In this document: positions 2,127-54,400 of the stretch, piece after piece | How the letters are laid out: each line of letters begins with the position of its first letter | Position numbering within the stretch: position 1 is the stretch's first letter | Assembly (NCBI GenBank): GCA_002734065.2 | Contig: NVXU02000039.1 | Coordinates: 62,001 to 126,000, forward strand | DNA length: 64,000 nt | Source of the DNA: Fluviicola sp. | GTDB lineage: Bacteria > Bacteroidota > Bacteroidia > Flavobacteriales_D > Crocinitomicaceae | Direction of reading: 5' to 3' | Notes under the pieces: generated by a model | What the model was told of the DNA's origin: nothing | Database searches by the model: none | The model's input: only the letters and a program-made list of their open reading frames with translations | Translations under genes and position numbers: made by a program

Positions 2127-4715
<2,589 letters not shown>

Positions 4716-11027: not shown

Positions 11028-11077
11028 AAAAAGCCGTTTTGGTCATCGAGCGAAGTCGAGATGCAAAACGGCTTTTT
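11028..11077 (-). terminator. Terminator after tsf with a repeat in its loop
   Basis: AAAAAGCCGTTTT (11028-11040) pairs with AAAACGGCTTTTT (11065-11077), a 13-bp perfect stem. The 24-nt loop is much longer than needed and contains the 20-bp hairpin repeat CATCGAGCGAAGTCGAGATG (11044-11063), which also occurs in island C. Confidence 0.85.
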
Positions 11078-12005: not shown

Positions 12006-13022
12006 TTATTTACTTAAAGCTTCAATCAAGTCCGCTTTCTTCATTGTAGAGATTCCTTTCACTCCAGCAGTTTTTGCTAATGCTTTTAATTCAGCAACAC
12101 TGTTAGAAGATAAATCTTTTACTTCAGCTTTTTCAGGAGCTTCAACTTTCTCAGTGGTTGCTGAGCTTGTCGAAGCATCAGCTTTTGCCTCAACCTTAAC
12201 TTCCTCTTTTTTTGGAACTTCTACTTTTTCAGCGGTTGCTGAGCTTGTCGAAGCATCTGTTTTTACTTCGGTTGCTGAGCCTGTCGAAGCATCTTTTTTC
12301 GCTTTTGCATCTTTGTCAGCAGCATCTTTTGCATTTCTTCTTTCTTCTAATCCTTCTTTGATTGCTCCGCAAACAGTATCAAGAATTAAAGTAATAGATT
12401 TCGTTGCATCATCGTTTGATGGAATTGGAAAATCAACCAATTTAGGATTTGAATTCGTATCTACCATTGCAAATACTGGAATATTCAAACGCTTTGCTTC
12501 TTTCAGTGCAATGTGTTCTTTGATAATGTCAACAATAAATATAGCTGCTGGTTGGCGAGTCATATCTGCGATAGAACCAAAATTCTTTTGTAATTTCTCA
12601 CGTTGACGAGTTTTGAATAAACGTTCTCTCTTGTTCAACGTTGACCAAGTTCCGTCCGTTTGCATCTTGTCGATAGAAGACATTTTACGAATAGACTTAC
12701 GTGTCGTCGCAAAGTTTGTCAACATTCCACCAGACCAACGTTCCGTAACGTAAGGCATGTTTAATTCTTTTACTCTTTCAGAAATAATATCTTTTGCTTG
12801 TTTTTTTGTTGCTACGAAAAGAATTTTCTTACCCGATTTTGCAATTTGCTTTAAAGCTGCGCTCGAATTTTCGAGGTGTGCAATTGTCTTATTTAGGTCA
12901 ATAATGTGGATACCTTTTTTTTCCTCAAAGATATACGGCGCCATTGCCGGGTTCCATTTTCTTTTCAAGTGTCCAAAGTGTACACCTGCATTCAATAAGT
13001 CTTCAAATTTTAATTTTGACAT
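12006..13022 (-). CDS. rpsB: 30S ribosomal protein S2 with long repeat-bearing tail
   Basis: A 338-residue S2 protein. Residues 1 to about 230 are the normal fold: MSKLKFEDLLNAGVHFGHLK, KRKWNPAMAPYIF, GGMLTNFATTRKS, PVFAMVDTNSNP and IPSNDDATKSI. S2 is usually about 230-270 residues. Here an extra tail of about 100 follows. Its first part is lysine/glutamate/alanine-rich and holds three copies of ASTSSAT or ASTGSAT, each encoded by a DNA hairpin repeat (see separate entries). The last 35 residues (NSVAELKALAKTAGVKGI, then KADLIEALSK) look like a Rho N-terminal/SAP-type helical RNA-binding motif. It lies between rpsI and tsf. Confidence 0.95.
   Translation of the reverse strand: MSKLKFEDLLNAGVHFGHLKRKWNPAMAPYIFEEKKGIHIIDLNKTIAHLENSSAALKQIAKSGKKILFVATKKQAKDIISERVKELNMPYVTERWSGGMLTNFATTRKSIRKMSSIDKMQTDGTWSTLNKRERLFKTRQREKLQKNFGSIADMTRQPAAIFIVDIIKEHIALKEAKRLNIPVFAMVDTNSNPKLVDFPIPSNDDATKSITLILDTVCGAIKEGLEERRNAKDAADKDAKAKKDASTGSATEVKTDASTSSATAEKVEVPKKEEVKVEAKADASTSSATTEKVEAPEKAEVKDLSSNSVAELKALAKTAGVKGISTMKKADLIEALSK
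12159..12177. repeat. Hairpin repeat inside rpsB, copy 1
   Basis: TGCT-GAGCTTGTCGA-AGCA in frame within the S2 tail. The 4-bp stem differs from that of the intergenic copies, but the loop is the same. The longer conserved block runs from 12156 to 12179. Confidence 0.8.
12237..12255. repeat. Hairpin repeat inside rpsB, copy 2
   Basis: A second identical copy of TGCT-GAGCTTGTCGA-AGCA, 78 bp from copy 1 and therefore in the same reading phase (ASTSSAT on the coding strand). Confidence 0.8.
12273..12291. repeat. Hairpin repeat inside rpsB, copy 3
   Basis: TGCT-GAGCCTGTCGA-AGCA, one loop base different from the other two copies. It is 36 bp from copy 2, again in the same phase (ASTGSAT). Confidence 0.8.
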
Positions 13023-23824: not shown

Positions 23825-23976
23825 TTAGACACGGTCGCAAAGCTCCCTTTGAGATGCGTCTTCGACTTTTAGAAACATTCATTCGCAAGCGAGTTCATTC
23901 TTAGACACGCTCCTGCGTCGCTCTTAGACTTAACCCTCAATTAAAATTAAATCGTTGCTTTGATTTTTTAATCAAA
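23825..23976. repeat. Mosaic repeat island B
   Basis: Intergenic stretch after porU2 made of the same module types as islands A and C. The 30-bp block at 23902-23931 is the exact reverse complement of 2307-2336 and 31211-31240. A TCGCAAGCGA palindrome with TTCATTC (23883-23900) matches island C with small changes. TTTGATT (23959-23965) and AATCAAA (23970-23976) form a final hairpin preceded by the GTTGCTTTG text seen at the centre of island C. Confidence 0.8.
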
Positions 23977-24031
23977 AAGTCATATTAATTGATTAAACTT
24001 AACAAGTTTAACTTAAATCAAGCATTTAAAA

Positions 24032-29979: not shown

Positions 29980-30905
29980 TACATTTTCTCTATGATTTCT
30001 GGCAACTTCTTGACGGCTGCTAATTCTCTAAATTTCATTCTAAAATCACCACTTGGACTTCCAAACACTGTTTTTCCAGCTGCTACATCCTTTCCAACAC
30101 CTGACTGCGCAAGAACGGTGCAACCTTTGCCTAAGGTTATATCACTTGCCAAGCCAACCTGTCCCCAAAGTGTTACATTGTCTTCGATAATGACGCAGCC
30201 GGCAATTCCGACATTTGCTGCCATGAGGCAACCTGCACCAACAATAGTATCGTGACCGATGTGCACTTGATTATCGATTTTTGTTCCCTCGCCGACTTTT
30301 GTCGTGCCAGAAACACCTGAATCAATGCTGCAAAGTGCACCAATTTCAACGTTCTTTTTTAAATGCACATTTCCGATGGAGTGCATTCTGTCATAACCCG
30401 TTTCTTTCTTTTTATAGTAGAATGCGTAGTGTCCGATGACAGAATTTGCCCCGACGATGACGTTTTCTTCGAGGATGGAGTTATTGCCAATCACTGCTCC
30501 TGGATGCAAAATTACGTTGGCGCTAATGGTACAATTGTGACCAATAAAAACGTTGGGAAAAATAACGGCAGAAGAATCAATGGTCGTGTTTTCTCCAACA
30601 GAACTATTCTGCGGAATGAAAGGCGAAAAATGCTTTGCCAGCTGATTGTAATCGTCAAAAGGTTTCTCAGAAATAATCAATGCTTTTCCCTCGGGACAAT
30701 CTACCTTTTTATCAATGAGAATGGTTGTTGCGGCAGAATTTAATGCTTTGTCGTAGTATTTTGGATGATCGACAAACATTAAGTCGCCATTTTCTACTTT
30801 ATGAATCTCATTGAGTCCTGAAACAACGTGATTTTCATCACCAACAAAAGAACAAGCAATGATTTCTGCAATTTCTTTGACGGTATAATCTTTGTTCAGT
30901 TTCAT
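29979..30905 (-). CDS. lpxD: UDP-3-O-acylglucosamine N-acyltransferase (LpxD family)
   Basis: A 308-residue protein that adds the second acyl chain in lipid A synthesis. An N-terminal uridine-binding domain (about 1-100; LNEIHKVENGDLMFVDHPKY) is followed by a left-handed beta helix of hexapeptide repeats (IGHNCTISANVILHPGAVIG). The catalytic histidine region reads KIDNQVHIGHDTIVGAG and matches LpxD. It is somewhat shorter than the usual 335-345 residues. The C-terminal helical extension is reduced, so it may be the second of two LpxD-like paralogues often found in Bacteroidota. It shares a transcript with the phosphatase gene. Confidence 0.82.
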   Translation of the reverse strand: MKLNKDYTVKEIAEIIACSFVGDENHVVSGLNEIHKVENGDLMFVDHPKYYDKALNSAATTILIDKKVDCPEGKALIISEKPFDDYNQLAKHFSPFIPQNSSVGENTTIDSSAVIFPNVFIGHNCTISANVILHPGAVIGNNSILEENVIVGANSVIGHYAFYYKKKETGYDRMHSIGNVHLKKNVEIGALCSIDSGVSGTTKVGEGTKIDNQVHIGHDTIVGAGCLMAANVGIAGCVIIEDNVTLWGQVGLASDITLGKGCTVLAQSGVGKDVAAGKTVFGSPSGDFRMKFRELAAVKKLPEIIEKM

Positions 30906-30998
30906 ATATAACGCTTTATCTTAGTAAAAGTACATTGAAAAGCCCTCGCTTAGGTTGTTACGACAAAAATGTTATCATTGGACTAATGTTGATAGAAT

Positions 30999-31320
30999 AG
31001 ACACATTCAATCGCAAGCGAATTCATTCTTAGACCGCTTCGCTACCAGACACGCCTTCATCTCGACTTCGCTCGATGACCGCGGCTGCTAGACACAGTCG
31101 CAAGCTCCTTTTTAGACTTGATTTCGCTTCGAGGAAACTAGTTGTTGCTTTGATTGCTCGCCTTACAAAATTGAAAAACCAAAGCAACAACTAAATTTTC
31201 ATCGAGAATTAAGTCTAAGAGCGACGCAGGAGCGTGTCTAAGAATGAATTCGCTTGCGAATGGAATGTTTCTAAAAGCGAAGCGGTCTAAGAAGGAGCTT
31301 GCGACTGTGTCTAATTTGAA
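30999..31320. repeat. Mosaic inverted-repeat island C (best preserved)
   Basis: The whole gap between lpxD and the next gene is built from modules bordered by TTAGA or TCTAA. Perfect inverted pairs are 31011-31033 with 31237-31259 (23 bp), 31030-31043 with 31276-31289 (14 bp), 31089-31110 with 31292-31313 (22 bp), and the central 31139-31152 with 31180-31193 (14 bp, TAGTTGTTGCTTTG). The order of modules is not the same on the two sides, so it is not one simple hairpin. The block 31211-31240 is identical to one in island A. 31058-31078 is the reverse complement of the tsf terminator loop (11043-11063). No credible open frame exists. Confidence 0.88.
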
Positions 31321-31361
31321 CCTAACTAACGCTTAACTGTACTACTCTAAAAACAATAACT

Positions 31362-31820
31362 ATGAAAACATTAACAATTGCAATTGCACTTCTACTTTCT
31401 TCTGCCAGTTTTGCCCAAACAGACGTTATTTCTAACAAAAGTCATTCAGGTGATTTGTCAGAATTGTATTTAGAACCCGATGATTTTGGAGCTCCAGATT
31501 ATTTTTTCAAAAGAGATGTTGACTCGGTAATCTATTATAAAAAGACATGCTTTATTGAAGTAAGAAAAGAACATATATCAATAAACGTTTTTATATTTAG
31601 AAGAGACACGATCTGTTCCCTTGATGCTGTTCCAAAGAATAAAAGTGAATTAGATTCATTCAAAACTCGTTATCCAGCCAGCACCCAATTCATCGGCTTT
31701 GAAAAAATTGAAAAAAAGAAAGCTGAGCGAAAAATAAACAGCATATCATTCTTCTTTGGAATCCTCATTCTTCTGATTGCTTTGTACTCATTCTTACCTC
31801 TTTTGAGAAAAAAAGCGTAG
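31362..31820 (+). CDS. Exported protein with C-terminal membrane anchor, unknown
   Basis: A 152-residue protein of no recognised family. It has a signal peptide (MKTLTIAIALLLSSASFA then Q) and about 90 residues of mixed sequence rich in acidic and aromatic residues (LYLEPDDFGAPDYFFKRDVD). A strongly hydrophobic helix near the end (about 128-147) is followed by LLRKKA. The final helix with a basic end suggests a periplasmic domain held in the inner membrane by its C-terminus. It is 4 bp from the next gene and likely co-transcribed with it. Confidence 0.55.
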   Translation: MKTLTIAIALLLSSASFAQTDVISNKSHSGDLSELYLEPDDFGAPDYFFKRDVDSVIYYKKTCFIEVRKEHISINVFIFRRDTICSLDAVPKNKSELDSFKTRYPASTQFIGFEKIEKKKAERKINSISFFFGILILLIALYSFLPLLRKKA

Positions 31821-45651: not shown

Positions 45652-48243
45652 ATGAATACGATTAAAAATTTATTGGCTGTTGCCATCATTTTCTTTTCTT
45701 TCAACTCAATTTCTCAAAATTATTTAGGAATACAGCAGAGTAATTATGCTGGAGTAATGGGAACAGACATTAACCCTGCAAGTTTTGTTGATGGGCGTTT
45801 TAAATTCGATTTGAATTTAGCAAGTTTCAACTTTAATTTTTATCAGAATCTTACTTCTTTCGATACCAGAGACATGCCGAAATGGTGGAGAAAATCATTC
45901 AAGCCAGACGTCAACAACTTAGGAGAGAATGTAACAGTAATTGGAGGCTCAAATCCTTACAACGATTGGTTGCTTCCAGATTCTACGTTTACAGATCGTT
46001 ATCTTGATAGTATCGATTACAATGAAACGAGGACTTATGGTATTTACAATAACATTCAGATTGATGTATTGAACTTTATGTTTCACATTAACCCTAAAAT
46101 AGCGGTCGGTCTTGCAGTAAAGTTTAGATCAATCACAAATTTAGATGATTTAGACCCTAAATTAGCTTATTTGGCGAATGAAGGTCTCGATTTTGCACCA
46201 TTATGGAACCAACAGTTCAATGAGCAATTATTAAACGTCAACTCTATGTCTTGGATGGAATACGGTGTTATATATTCTCAAGTATTAAAAGATGACGGTG
46301 AACATTTCTTTAAAGCTGGTGGTAAAGCAAAATGGCTTTCTGGTTATGCGGCAGCCTATGTGAATACGGATAATTTTAATTACAACTTATTGAATGCTGA
46401 CACTTCTCAATTTCTGCAAGGTGATTTTTCTTACGGTCACTCAACAGGAGCCCTTGAAGGTTCTAAAGAAGCACTAGGATTCTTATACACAGATCCTATT
46501 ACAGGAGAAAAAGGAACTGGACTTCCAAAATCTGCTTCTAAATTTGGATTGGGACTAGATATCGGTTTCGTTTACGAATGGAGACCTAATTGGGAGGAAT
46601 ACAAATATGACATGGATGGTGAAACAAACATCTGGAGAAGAGACAAAGAAAAATACAAATTAAGAGTAGGTGCCTCTGTTTTAGACATTGGTGGTATGAA
46701 ATTTGAAAAAGGCGGCTTAAGTCGTGATTTTTCTGTCAACACAAGCAATCTTTTTGATCTGACAACATTTGATGGTGCCGGCTCAATTGCTGCATTTGAC
46801 AGTGTTATTGATTCATTAACAACGAACAGTCCTGGTTGGACAGCAAACAATGATGCTGGAACATTTTTCATGAAAACTCCAACAGCATTAAGCTTACAAG
46901 TTGATTACCACATCTGGAAATGGTTCTACGTGAACGTTACTGGAATGTTGAACCTCAACAACCGCAAAAAACCTCACAGAGTGAGAGTTGCCAATCAATT
47001 GGCAATCATACCTAGTTTTGATTATGCTTGGTTTGGTTTGTCTGTTCCTGTTTCGATGAACAAATATTCTGGATTTAAAGCAGGTCTTGCAACACGCCTT
47101 GGACCTTTGACTCTAGGTGTTACAGATTTCAGAACATTATTTGCAACTGGTAAAGTTCGAGGAGCAGAATTTTATGCTGGACTTCGCTTACCTATTCTTT
47201 ACGTTCATCCTAGTGATATTGATGGCGATAAAGTCTCAGATAAATTAGATGAATGCTTAGTTGTTCCTGGTTTATGGGAATTCAGAGGTTGTCCTGATAC
47301 AGATAGAGATGGTATCAAAGACATTGACGATCACTGTCCAAACGAGCCAGGTTTAGCAATATTCAACGGTTGCCCAGACAGAGATAATGACAGTATTCCA
47401 GACAAAGATGATGATTGTCCTGATTTATTCGGAGAGAAAAGATACAACGGTTGTCCTGACACAGATGGTGACAGCATTGTTGATCCTAAAGATGATTGTC
47501 CAGAAATTCCTGGAATTGCGAAATTCAACGGTTGTCCTGATACGGATGGCGATGGAATTAAAGACAGCGATGATGCTTGTCCAGATGTTCCAGGTCCATT
47601 AGTGAATAATGGTTGCCCTGATACAGATGGTGATGGATTGTTTGACTTCGTTGATAACTGTCCAGAAGTATTCGGACCAAAAGAGAACAACGGTTGTCCT
47701 TGGCCAGATACTGACGGTGATGGATTGTTAGACAAAGATGATAAATGTCCGAATTTAGCAGGCCCAATCAAGAACGACGGATGTCCTTACCAAGATACAG
47801 ATAATGATGGTGTCCTTGACAAAGACGATGAATGTCCAGCAACCCCAGGTCCTGTTGAGAACAAAGGTTGTCCTGTTATTGAAGTAGAGGTTCAAGAAAT
47901 CTTGAAAACAGCTTTTGAAAACTTAGAGTTTGAAACTGGAAAAGACATCATTAAAGAGGAGTCTTTGCCGTCGCTTACTGAGTTAGCTGAGGTTCTTGTG
48001 AAGAAATCAGAGTGGAAATTGCAAATTGCAGGACACACCGATAACGTTGGTGCAGCTCAAGGTAACTTAGTCTTATCTAAGAAACGTGCAGCTTCTGTGA
48101 AACGTTTCATGGAATCTAAAGGTGTTGCTGGTGATAGATTATCTGTTCTTTACTTCGGTGAAACAGATCCAATCGCAGATAATTCAACAAAAGAAGGACG
48201 TCAGAAAAACAGACGTGTAGAAATGACAATTATTTTCGAATAA
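45652..48243 (+). CDS. DUF5723/TSP3/OmpA outer-membrane protein
   Basis: An 863-residue protein in three parts. After a signal peptide (about 1-21, ending SISQ) comes a barrel-like N-terminal region of about 500 residues starting YLGIQQSNYAGVMGTDINPA, the DUF5723 opening. Next are eight calcium-binding thrombospondin type 3 repeats (about 522-745), each with a D-x-D-x-D loop and a C-P near its end (GCPDTDGDGIKDSDDACP is one). The C-terminal OmpA domain follows (about 765-863; LQIAGHTDNVGAAQGNLVLS, KKRAASVKRFMESKGV, GRQKNRRVEM). It likely anchors a surface structure to peptidoglycan, with a calcium-stiffened spacer. A strong terminator follows. Confidence 0.85.
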   Translation: MNTIKNLLAVAIIFFSFNSISQNYLGIQQSNYAGVMGTDINPASFVDGRFKFDLNLASFNFNFYQNLTSFDTRDMPKWWRKSFKPDVNNLGENVTVIGGSNPYNDWLLPDSTFTDRYLDSIDYNETRTYGIYNNIQIDVLNFMFHINPKIAVGLAVKFRSITNLDDLDPKLAYLANEGLDFAPLWNQQFNEQLLNVNSMSWMEYGVIYSQVLKDDGEHFFKAGGKAKWLSGYAAAYVNTDNFNYNLLNADTSQFLQGDFSYGHSTGALEGSKEALGFLYTDPITGEKGTGLPKSASKFGLGLDIGFVYEWRPNWEEYKYDMDGETNIWRRDKEKYKLRVGASVLDIGGMKFEKGGLSRDFSVNTSNLFDLTTFDGAGSIAAFDSVIDSLTTNSPGWTANNDAGTFFMKTPTALSLQVDYHIWKWFYVNVTGMLNLNNRKKPHRVRVANQLAIIPSFDYAWFGLSVPVSMNKYSGFKAGLATRLGPLTLGVTDFRTLFATGKVRGAEFYAGLRLPILYVHPSDIDGDKVSDKLDECLVVPGLWEFRGCPDTDRDGIKDIDDHCPNEPGLAIFNGCPDRDNDSIPDKDDDCPDLFGEKRYNGCPDTDGDSIVDPKDDCPEIPGIAKFNGCPDTDGDGIKDSDDACPDVPGPLVNNGCPDTDGDGLFDFVDNCPEVFGPKENNGCPWPDTDGDGLLDKDDKCPNLAGPIKNDGCPYQDTDNDGVLDKDDECPATPGPVENKGCPVIEVEVQEILKTAFENLEFETGKDIIKEESLPSLTELAEVLVKKSEWKLQIAGHTDNVGAAQGNLVLSKKRAASVKRFMESKGVAGDRLSVLYFGETDPIADNSTKEGRQKNRRVEMTIIFE

Positions 48244-53884: not shown

Positions 53885-54400
53885 AGTTTGAAGCGTTAGA
53901 ATGTTAGAGTTTTAGAAACGCTGACGCTTTTAGACAGGTTAGAGACGCTGACGTTCTTAGAAACGGACTACGTCCTTTTAGAGAGATAGATTTCTCGAAG
54001 AATGGCGATTCACTTTCTTACATTGAGCTTGTTGAAATGTTCATTTTTCAGTTATTCGGTTCGTCTGTTAATCCTTTAAAACAGAGAAAGTAGGAGATTT
54101 CGCTTCGGCGAGATTAGATGTCATCCTCTTACTTTTTTTCATTGATAAAAAAAGTAAGCAAAAAAATCTAGCGCTGCATTTTCTCCATTTCATTCCACTC
54201 TTGAAAAGCGATACTTTTGATGATACTTCTGCTAACGCTCCAGTCTTTCAAAAGTATTCGCGCTTTTCAATTCGCTGCATTCATTCTAAAAATGATGCGC
54301 GGACCTTCGGAGAAACTAGAATCCTTTTAGAAAATCGATTTTTCGAAGCGAGAACTTCAATTTTTCACTTTTCACTTTTCATTCTTCATCTTTCATTTTT
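53885..54400. repeat. Repeat region D between purB and the EI24 gene
   Basis: A 579-bp divergent gap without genes. 53897-54000 holds TTAGA-spaced modules (ACGCTGACGC twice, the palindrome GGACTACGTCC, GAGA..TCTC) like islands A-C but with different texts. 54021-54039 is a copy of the CATT..AATG hairpin repeat with one loop change. 54128-54139 and 54147-54158 form a poly-T/poly-A hairpin like that at 14090. 54201-54220 pairs with 54248-54270 (two 10-bp arms with a 3-nt bulge, TTGAAAAGCG and ATACTTTTGA). After 54370 there are TTTTCATT-type simple repeats. Confidence 0.7.
54128..54158. repeat. Poly-T/poly-A hairpin, copy 2
   Basis: CTTACTTTTTTT pairs perfectly with AAAAAAAGTAAG around a 7-nt loop. 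It closely resembles 14090-14123. Confidence 0.65.

Follow-up and report, generated by a model that had tools for sequence, protein, structure and literature searches.

The gap between lpxD and its neighbouring gene raises the question of how short sequence modules can be perfect reverse complements of each other across a centre and at the same time be arranged in a different order on the two sides. The initial annotation described the gap as a store of units that are copied and inverted individually, and suggested a folded RNA or a REP-type transposase among the possible explanations. We analyzed the gap within a window of 64,000 nucleotides, the whole stretch of DNA considered here (G000:C24:62001-126000), from a genome of 3.49 Mb in 62 contigs (G000). 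The repeat region, island C, lies in a divergent gap flanked by lpxD on the minus strand and an ORF of 152 aa on the plus strand. The best full-length match to LpxD among named records was from Crocinitomicaceae bacterium isolate SZUA-1406 (88%). The start codons of the two genes enclose 456 bases (30906-31361), and as the island covers 316 of them, the statement that the gap consists almost entirely of modules was an overstatement.

Exact inverted matches of at least 12 nt within 30998-31313 measured 24, 22, 18 and 14 nt. The lengths reported previously for the four perfect pairs were 23, 22, 14 and 14 bp. The unit order does differ between the sides, being a-b-c-d from outside to inside in the left arm and e-a'-b'-d' from inside to outside in the right arm, and the 30-bp unit said to recur in two other islands of the window is present there in exact copies (Table 1). 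The folding z-scores of island C were -8.84 as DNA (plus strand) and -9.87 and -9.48 as RNA on the two strands, with none of 100 shuffles as good in each case. When island C was searched with BLAST in the genome that contains it, at least 101 matches were obtained at E ≤ 10, with 40 of 61 candidates scored; an island was often matched several times or in both orientations. Based on the folding scores and the matches in its own genome, the inverted-repeat pattern is not a product of chance; the repeat structure described from the sequence is real and island C is a modular repeat.

Table 1. Positions of island C, its parts and related arrays in the window.
Feature	Position	Strand	Observation
Island C, whole	30998..31313	.	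Sister species G014 and G196 without island at this site
Left-arm unit a (ACACATTCAATCGCAAGCGAATTCATTC + TTAG)	31001..31032	+	24-nt exact inverted match to right arm
Left-arm unit b (ACCGCTTCGCTAC + CAG, altered junction)	31033..31048	+	Within 18-nt exact inverted match
Left-arm unit c (ACACGCC..GGC-type, second REP-like element inside)	31049..31091	+	REP-like copy at 31059
Left-arm unit d (ACACAGTCGCAAGCTCCTTT + TTAG)	31092..31115	+	22-nt exact inverted match
Asymmetric core, minus orientation of the family, TTAG in common with unit d	31112..31218	-	Model R1
Right-arm unit e' (GAGCGACGCAGGAGCGTGT + CTAA), common innermost type	31219..31241	-	30-mer 31211-31240 exact at 2307 (+, island A) and 23902 (-, island B)
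Right-arm unit a'	31242..31274	-	Exact inverted matches
Right-arm unit b' (GCGAAGC mini-hairpin)	31275..31290	-	Exact inverted matches
Right-arm unit d'	31291..31314	-	Exact inverted matches
Island A, same family as C, core 2208-2314 (-)	2127..2402	.	Orthologous G014 site has another island
Island B, left arm and decayed core (23924-24011), without right arm	23830..24011	.	Marked array, model R1
One-armed TTAG array, six TTAGA junctions in a run	53890..53985	+	No core found

Other repeats were also noted in the window. A GGTTGCTGAGCTTGTCGAAGCATC-type repeat occurs three times at 12156-12302, with spacings of 78 and 36 bases, and may represent a REP-like element within coding sequence. At 47289-47873 there are seven tandem repeats spaced by 81 and 87 bases, which resemble calcium-binding thrombospondin type 3-like repeats.

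The whole-genome search bore out the suggestion that island C has many relatives. Altogether 32 stretches were fetched, TTAG and CTAA were marked in 29 array loci, and a core was identified at 20 places. The 20 islands with a core share one layout, in which left units ending in TTAG are followed by the core and then by right units beginning after CTAA. In a complete island, a homologous, asymmetric core of about 108 nt is flanked on either side by an arm made of short, hairpin-like units, whereas loci B, D53, C24d, C24e, C32, C21, C15, C2b and C27 are one-armed, short or decayed. The core runs from TTAGAC to GTCTAA, its two ends being complementary over 6-7 bases. The alignment of 16 full-length copies contains 113 columns with a mean column identity of 78%. 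The cores occur in both orientations, 12 plus and 7 minus among the 19 that are longer than 80 nt (18 from G000 and one from G014). The core of island C scored 113 bits on the minus strand and 61.7 bits on the plus strand with the core model R1, of whose training set it was a part. The cores of C12 and C56a have their first half in common.

With model R1 and a threshold of E ≤ 0.1, the core was detected at 20 distinct places in G000, at two in G014 and weakly at one in G003, and at none in 31 of the 34 genomes of the genus; the model, trained on G000 copies with 114 candidates scored per genome, may favour G000, and the G014 assembly is 92% complete. The G014 copy at site A was recovered at E 1.5e-13. 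The core has thus been amplified in the G000 lineage relative to G014, the nearest relative that carries it.

The segment L147:1481-3961 (G000:C24:151780-154260) contains the left arm and core start of C24d and the core end and right arm of C24e, which look like one island split at the tip of the core by about 2.1 kb with four ORFs. The insert encodes an HTH_3 protein adjoining a Gp49 (DUF891) protein, presumably a HigBA-like toxin-antitoxin arrangement. A relative of the core whose surroundings have TTTAGC/GCTAAA-type junctions instead of TTAGA/TCTAA, and thus a variant linker within G000, was observed at about L340:1560-1780 (G000:C3:40604-40713).

We parsed the arms of the 20 islands with a core into 148 units (73 left and 75 right); a first parse of 110 units had missed the innermost ones, and the second shortened C6b to 1+1 and C44 to 2+3, where the marked sequences show more units. 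Most units are 16-33 nt long, and 100 of the 148 recur in nearly the same form in another island. The innermost unit in most islands is ACACGCCTTCGGCTC or ACACGCTCC-T/G-CGTCGCTC, or a variant of these. Many units end in TTTTAG, and one unit in C26a is chimeric. An apex of the type C(GNA)G was present on the outward strand of 105 of the 148 units (mean 17.9 and maximum 29 in 200 shuffles) and in the reverse sense in a single unit. The word GCGNAGC was found in 54 units (shuffles: mean 0.9, maximum 5). GCGNAGC sequences form extraordinarily stable DNA mini-hairpins, suggesting that the unit apexes are a feature of DNA rather than of RNA. The stems are short: among the 110 units of the first parse, the longest stem was 2 bp in 47 and 3 bp in 27 (46 and 40 after shuffling), at least 5 bp in 24 as compared to 3 after shuffling, and never more than 6 bp.

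The polarity of the units relative to the core is fixed. Inside contiguous arms, no TCTAA junction of opposite sense was present among the 110 units of the first parse, a count that is a bound because an inverted unit could end a parsed arm, and visual inspection of the 29 marked islands revealed no unit of opposite sense. Together with the nearly uniform sense of the apexes, this gives no support to the idea that units are inverted freely. Joining beside TTAG would keep every unit of an arm in one sense and would explain the fixed polarity, TTAG being on the top strand in the left arm and on the bottom strand in the right arm. The very small size of the C(GNA)G apexes suggests that the recognised form would be single-stranded DNA, as in HUH-type REP processing.

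A second REP-like element (ATCTCGACTTCGCTCGATGACC and variants) was observed at hairpin tips, with stems of at least 5 bp in 8 of 16 distinct copies from the fetched loci, as compared to 4.6% of 240 mismatched flank pairs that served as control. Five of the copies with stems are located in terminator-like stems and two in island units, and the element is present inside 6 of the 148 parsed units. Its sites include window positions 11042-11062 (-) and 31059, L169:1514, L170:1545, L176:1508, L179:1071, L150:1579 and L154:6017. REP dimers inside palindromes are described for other bacteria in the available text of PMC3733652. This second REP inside some units (..CTCGATGACC) may be nearer to the CGTC-tagged REPs.

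The relation between the two arms was analyzed across the islands with a core. A nested hairpin with a scrambled order was rejected, since same-level units are no more similar within an island than between islands. The similarity of same-level units within and between islands was 0.60 and 0.56 for the innermost position and 0.14 and 0.21, 0.37 and 0.32, and 0.20 and 0.19 for positions 2 to 4, respectively. Near-identical innermost pairs were slightly enriched, being observed in 7 of the 20 islands and among mismatched pairs in 76 of 380 (p 0.087). The numbers of left and right units are weakly correlated (r = 0.33). Thus, opposite arms are not mirror images. Wholly independent arms were likewise excluded by a permutation test: for 21 of the 73 left units, the right arm of the same island contains a similar unit, as compared to 11.2 after permutation, and none of 5000 permutations gave a count as high. 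Cross-arm partners were also in excess among the outer units (8 of 53, 3.7 after permutation, p 0.015). At the strict similarity threshold of this test, only one unit of island C was counted; by its long exact matches, island C itself is an instance of units shared across arms. Both arms therefore draw on one repertoire; their units are not paired level by level, and there is some copying from one arm of an island to the other.

Because similar units recur across the arms of their own island about twice as often as expected after permutation, it is likely that units are copied from one arm to the other and thereby inverted in the genome. The proposal that units are copied and inverted singly is supported as far as copying between arms is concerned, and not for free inversion. 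The flanks are duplicated in inverse outside the units at C56b (TAAAAGTAGTGATTTTAGA) and C12 (GAAGTAGCTTTTTAGATT), and no such duplication was seen by eye in 16 other islands (excluding C6b and C44, for which the parse was cut short). Template switching between inverted repeats leads to homogenisation of arms and inversion of the spacer, according to the available text of PMC8604942. It fits the flanks of C12 and C56b, the core inversions and the units shared across arms: a switch between the inverted arms would turn the core around, place copies of units in the opposite arm and carry flanking bases from one side to the other. The same observations, together with the half-shared cores of C12 and C56a and the chimeric unit in C26a, agree with an explanation by repair and replication alone, in which pieces would be duplicated, swapped and inverted through microhomology at TTAGA, through ectopic recombination between islands and through template switches at hairpins. 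Near-identical units in many unlinked islands argue against this explanation, as islands at so many unlinked sites would have to arise by repair alone, and so does the tenfold difference in core copies between G000 and G014.

The sites of 20 islands could be compared with at least one of the sister species G014 and G196 (loci D53, C6a, C6b, C24e, C56c, C21, C15, C32 and C2b are outside this comparison). Loci of G196 and G014 are identical to stretches of the named records L062 and L117, respectively. At 13 of these sites (C, C2a, C2c, C12, C26a, C26b, C41, C44, C54, C56a, C56b, C57 and C62) no array was present in the sisters seen, with G196 as the only sister at C54 and C56a and G014 as the only one at C57 and C62. 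Both flanks matched in at least one sister at twelve of these sites, and the left flank only at C26a. Arrays of other units were present at A, B, C3, C24d and C55, a remnant was observed in G196 at C31, and site C27 was not interpretable. At the island C site, G014 reads TTGATAGGGAAAAGAGAATTTGAACC by eye, and the island replaces about 10 bases between TTGATAG and ATTTGAACC; in both sisters, the two-flank script located the break on one side at a different position. No target-site duplication was seen at this site or at the readable junctions among the 13 sites, several junctions being too diverged. In one case, C56a, the empty site has a TTAG at the position of the island's first TTAG. No transposition event or intermediate was observed in the sister-site comparisons.

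The occupied sites support the view that whole units are gained, lost or exchanged at one site between close species. Site A has four left and four right units in both G000 and G014, mostly of different kinds, around a core in minus orientation in G000 and in plus orientation in G014, and a remnant in G196. At C55, the numbers of left and right units are about 1 + 1 in G196, 3 + 1 in G014 and 4-5 + 2 in G000, and G014 and G196 have the outermost left unit and the right unit in common. Here, G014 contains two whole units between CGAACTTTTAG and ACTAGATTTT, and G196 reads CGAACTTTTAA-ACTAGATTTT. The difference of two units, a gain or a loss in either direction, is placed exactly between CGAACTTTTA(G/A) and ACTAGATTTT, at a TTAG-type junction.

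The array-less sister sites, at which G000 has full layouts, also argue against the explanation by repair and replication alone, which we consider somewhat unlikely. Template switching alone does not account for new sites.

A further explanation is that the islands are selected structural elements, acting as a folded RNA, a bidirectional transcription terminator or a nucleoid or protein-binding site. The strong folding of island C and the many units ending in TTTTAG agree with such a role. However, the stem of core C is paired in 82.5% of the alignment cells, as compared to 82.8% after column shuffling and 31-49% in slid versions, and 7 core pairs were changed on both sides, with 6.7 expected (core alignment only). 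The core alignment thus displays no sign of compensatory evolution. In three island loci there was no Rfam match at the gathering score, and below this threshold island C gave only four miRNA-precursor-like matches. The folded RNA proposed by the initial annotation was therefore rejected, as there was no covariation in the core and no Rfam family in the three island loci. The gene contexts of 29 loci, based on crude ORF calls, were also mixed (10 divergent, 8 convergent and 11 tandem), and no terminator-like site was found in 30850-31420. This lack of bias speaks against a general terminator or promoter element. A terminator role at some sites is possible, because at C2c both sisters have, where G000 has the island, a terminator-like hairpin followed by a T-run that resembles an intrinsic terminator. 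Since the sisters also lack an array at 13 of the 20 compared sites, we find a selected structural element quite unlikely as a general explanation.

A phage or plasmid origin was rejected as well: island C had no match in phage and plasmid records (distant mode), and one unit pattern had no exact match in viral contigs.

The possibility that the units are classical REPs mobilised by a resident RAYT was addressed by searching for the transposase domain PF01797. The islands resemble such REPs in being dispersed between genes and hairpin-like, with a tetranucleotide at the foot and in mosaic clusters. G000 has one PF01797 match, with 23.6 bits in the genome search and 24.6 bits for the ORF at a cut-off of 23. 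The ORF, on contig C59, encodes a RAYT-like protein of 162 aa with DHVH and YIYQNP motifs (L168:4700-5331 for the gene together with its palindrome). Upstream of it there is a different, near-palindromic sequence with the centre CTGGTCGCGACCAG, which is found at five places in the genome, one with a mismatch, and is a separate small REP family. The three genomes of the genus with most array hits (G000, G161 and G003) all have PF01797. Nevertheless, among 34 genomes of the genus, arrays are present in 15, PF01797 in 13 and both in 6 (Fisher p = 1.0), an association test that is weak as draft genomes may lack genes. None of eight RAYT loci of relatives contains a unit array: six have no GCGNAGC word and only scattered TTAGA/TCTAA, the locus of G008 lies among its own palindromes without TTAGA, and the words in G156 are not in an array. 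Thus, the REP-type transposase gene that had been suggested does exist, but it adjoins another palindrome and its presence does not track the arrays.

The available text of PMC6006769 gives a GT[AG]G tetranucleotide at the hairpin foot as a feature of GTAG-type REPs, and it describes Bacteroidetes RAYTs of subclass 2.6 as flanked by atypical structures with no GT[AG]G and weaker folding, which is in favour of a RAYT. In the marked islands the GT[AG]G foot is absent and the junctions are TTAG/CTAA. A classical RAYT-REP system was rejected on the combined absence of this foot, of a unit-flanked RAYT and of an association with PF01797, and we regard mobilisation of classical REPs by the resident RAYT as very improbable. 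No enzyme tied to the units was found by the PF01797 search of G000 or in the eight RAYT loci of relatives.

Comparison with known repeats placed the islands near, and not within, described families. Dispersal over many short loci would argue against an integron attC array or a CRISPR. The BOX and RUP elements of pneumococcus are likewise intergenic and modular, and the number of their modules varies. A BOX element has few modules, in a fixed order, whereas the islands have two open-ended arms. MITEs of DDE transposons are short and dispersed and have inverted ends. The islands have these features in common with MITEs but differ in their modular arms; no target-site duplication was seen at the readable empty sites. 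The CGTC-tagged REPs, as described in the available text of PMC3733652, are found in Bacteroidetes among other phyla and are tagged hairpins with no dedicated transposase known. They have stems of 8-9 bp with loops of 4-5 nt and are mostly head-to-head dimers with rare clusters, whereas 24 of 110 units here reach 5 bp and none exceeds 6 bp. These units hence differ from CGTC/TGTC-tagged REPs, and the word TGTC is present in GTGTCTAA junctions.

The nearest kind is that of REPs, REPINs and BIMEs, for which we compared the available text of PMC3116915, PMC8266576, PMC6006769, PMC3733652 and PMC12306157. We file the islands as a variant and not as a member, since they behave like BIMEs or REPINs and lack features that define REPs. 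Like the BIMEs and REPINs described in the accessible parts of PMC3116915 and PMC6006769, they are intergenic mosaics of inverted hairpins around a spacer, present in many copies and apparently spread in trans. As in REPINs, two inverted hairpins surround a spacer within a larger hairpin (20 islands; fold of island C), and as in BIMEs, several palindromic unit types form intergenic mosaics that are shared between loci. REPs form a stable stem-loop of 20-40 nt; most units here measure 16-33 nt, and 24 of 110 have a longest stem of at least 5 bp, as compared to 3 after shuffling. The islands also differ from BIMEs and REPINs in their junctions, in having several unit families per arm with small stems, in the homologous core and in the lack of a RAYT flanked by units. 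The alternation of neighbouring units that characterizes BIMEs is not seen, as the units of one arm have the same sense. No description of TTAG-linked mosaics in this group was recognised among the papers listed from the open literature. The islands could represent a new chromosomal hairpin element, in which an enzyme that is not a classical RAYT would join hairpins of 16-33 nt with C(GNA)G apexes singly next to TTAG in single-stranded DNA, forming two polarised arms on a mobile core, seen so far in one Flavobacteriales-like family; this we judge unlikely.

The array pattern is widespread among the relatives. The pattern TCYAA-GCGNAGCG-TCYAA was present in 49 of 200 genomes of the family, representing 13 of 24 genera, with up to 66 matches in one genome (G097), as compared to 13 of 200 genomes with at most one match each for the reversed control pattern. 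At the order level, it was found in 39 of 299 genomes, of which 21 were among the 117 of the family and 18 among the 182 of other families. Since the control pattern was found in 10 of the latter 182, the pattern is near background outside the family. The search among relatives gave 34 matches in G192, and linkers of 7-8 bases were observed in the loci of several relatives among the matches listed. Two loci of family relatives (L201 and L206) display a heptad-like spacing, with words of the AGAC type on one side and, at intervals of about 7 bases, words of the GTCT type on the other, and these arrays are mixed with similar mini-hairpins.

The mosaic repeat is real, dynamic and amplified in this lineage, and its mechanism is in part established. 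We hold it, at about even confidence, that island C is a composite, non-autonomous repeat of the REP/BIME/REPIN-like kind with template switching between its arms. Such a repeat would have two layers. The first would be the dispersed polar core, usually flanked by one of the two favoured innermost units, and the second would be the outer arms, which gain, lose and swap short hairpin-like units singly or a few together at TTAG junctions. From the arrangement of this composite repeat we infer that a single-stranded form would serve as intermediate, that units would be joined next to TTAG, that templates would be switched and that some enzyme may act on the units.

The nested, shuffled inverted repeats of the initial annotation need no scrambled hairpin, as two one-way arms filled from a common repertoire give the same appearance. 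How REP-like mosaics grow is an old question, and at C55 the same site has been caught with 1, 3 and 4-5 left units across sister species, with readable unit borders. The fixed polarity suggests a simple and testable rule, namely joining beside TTAG on one strand, and the family genomes that carry the array pattern offer many replicates.
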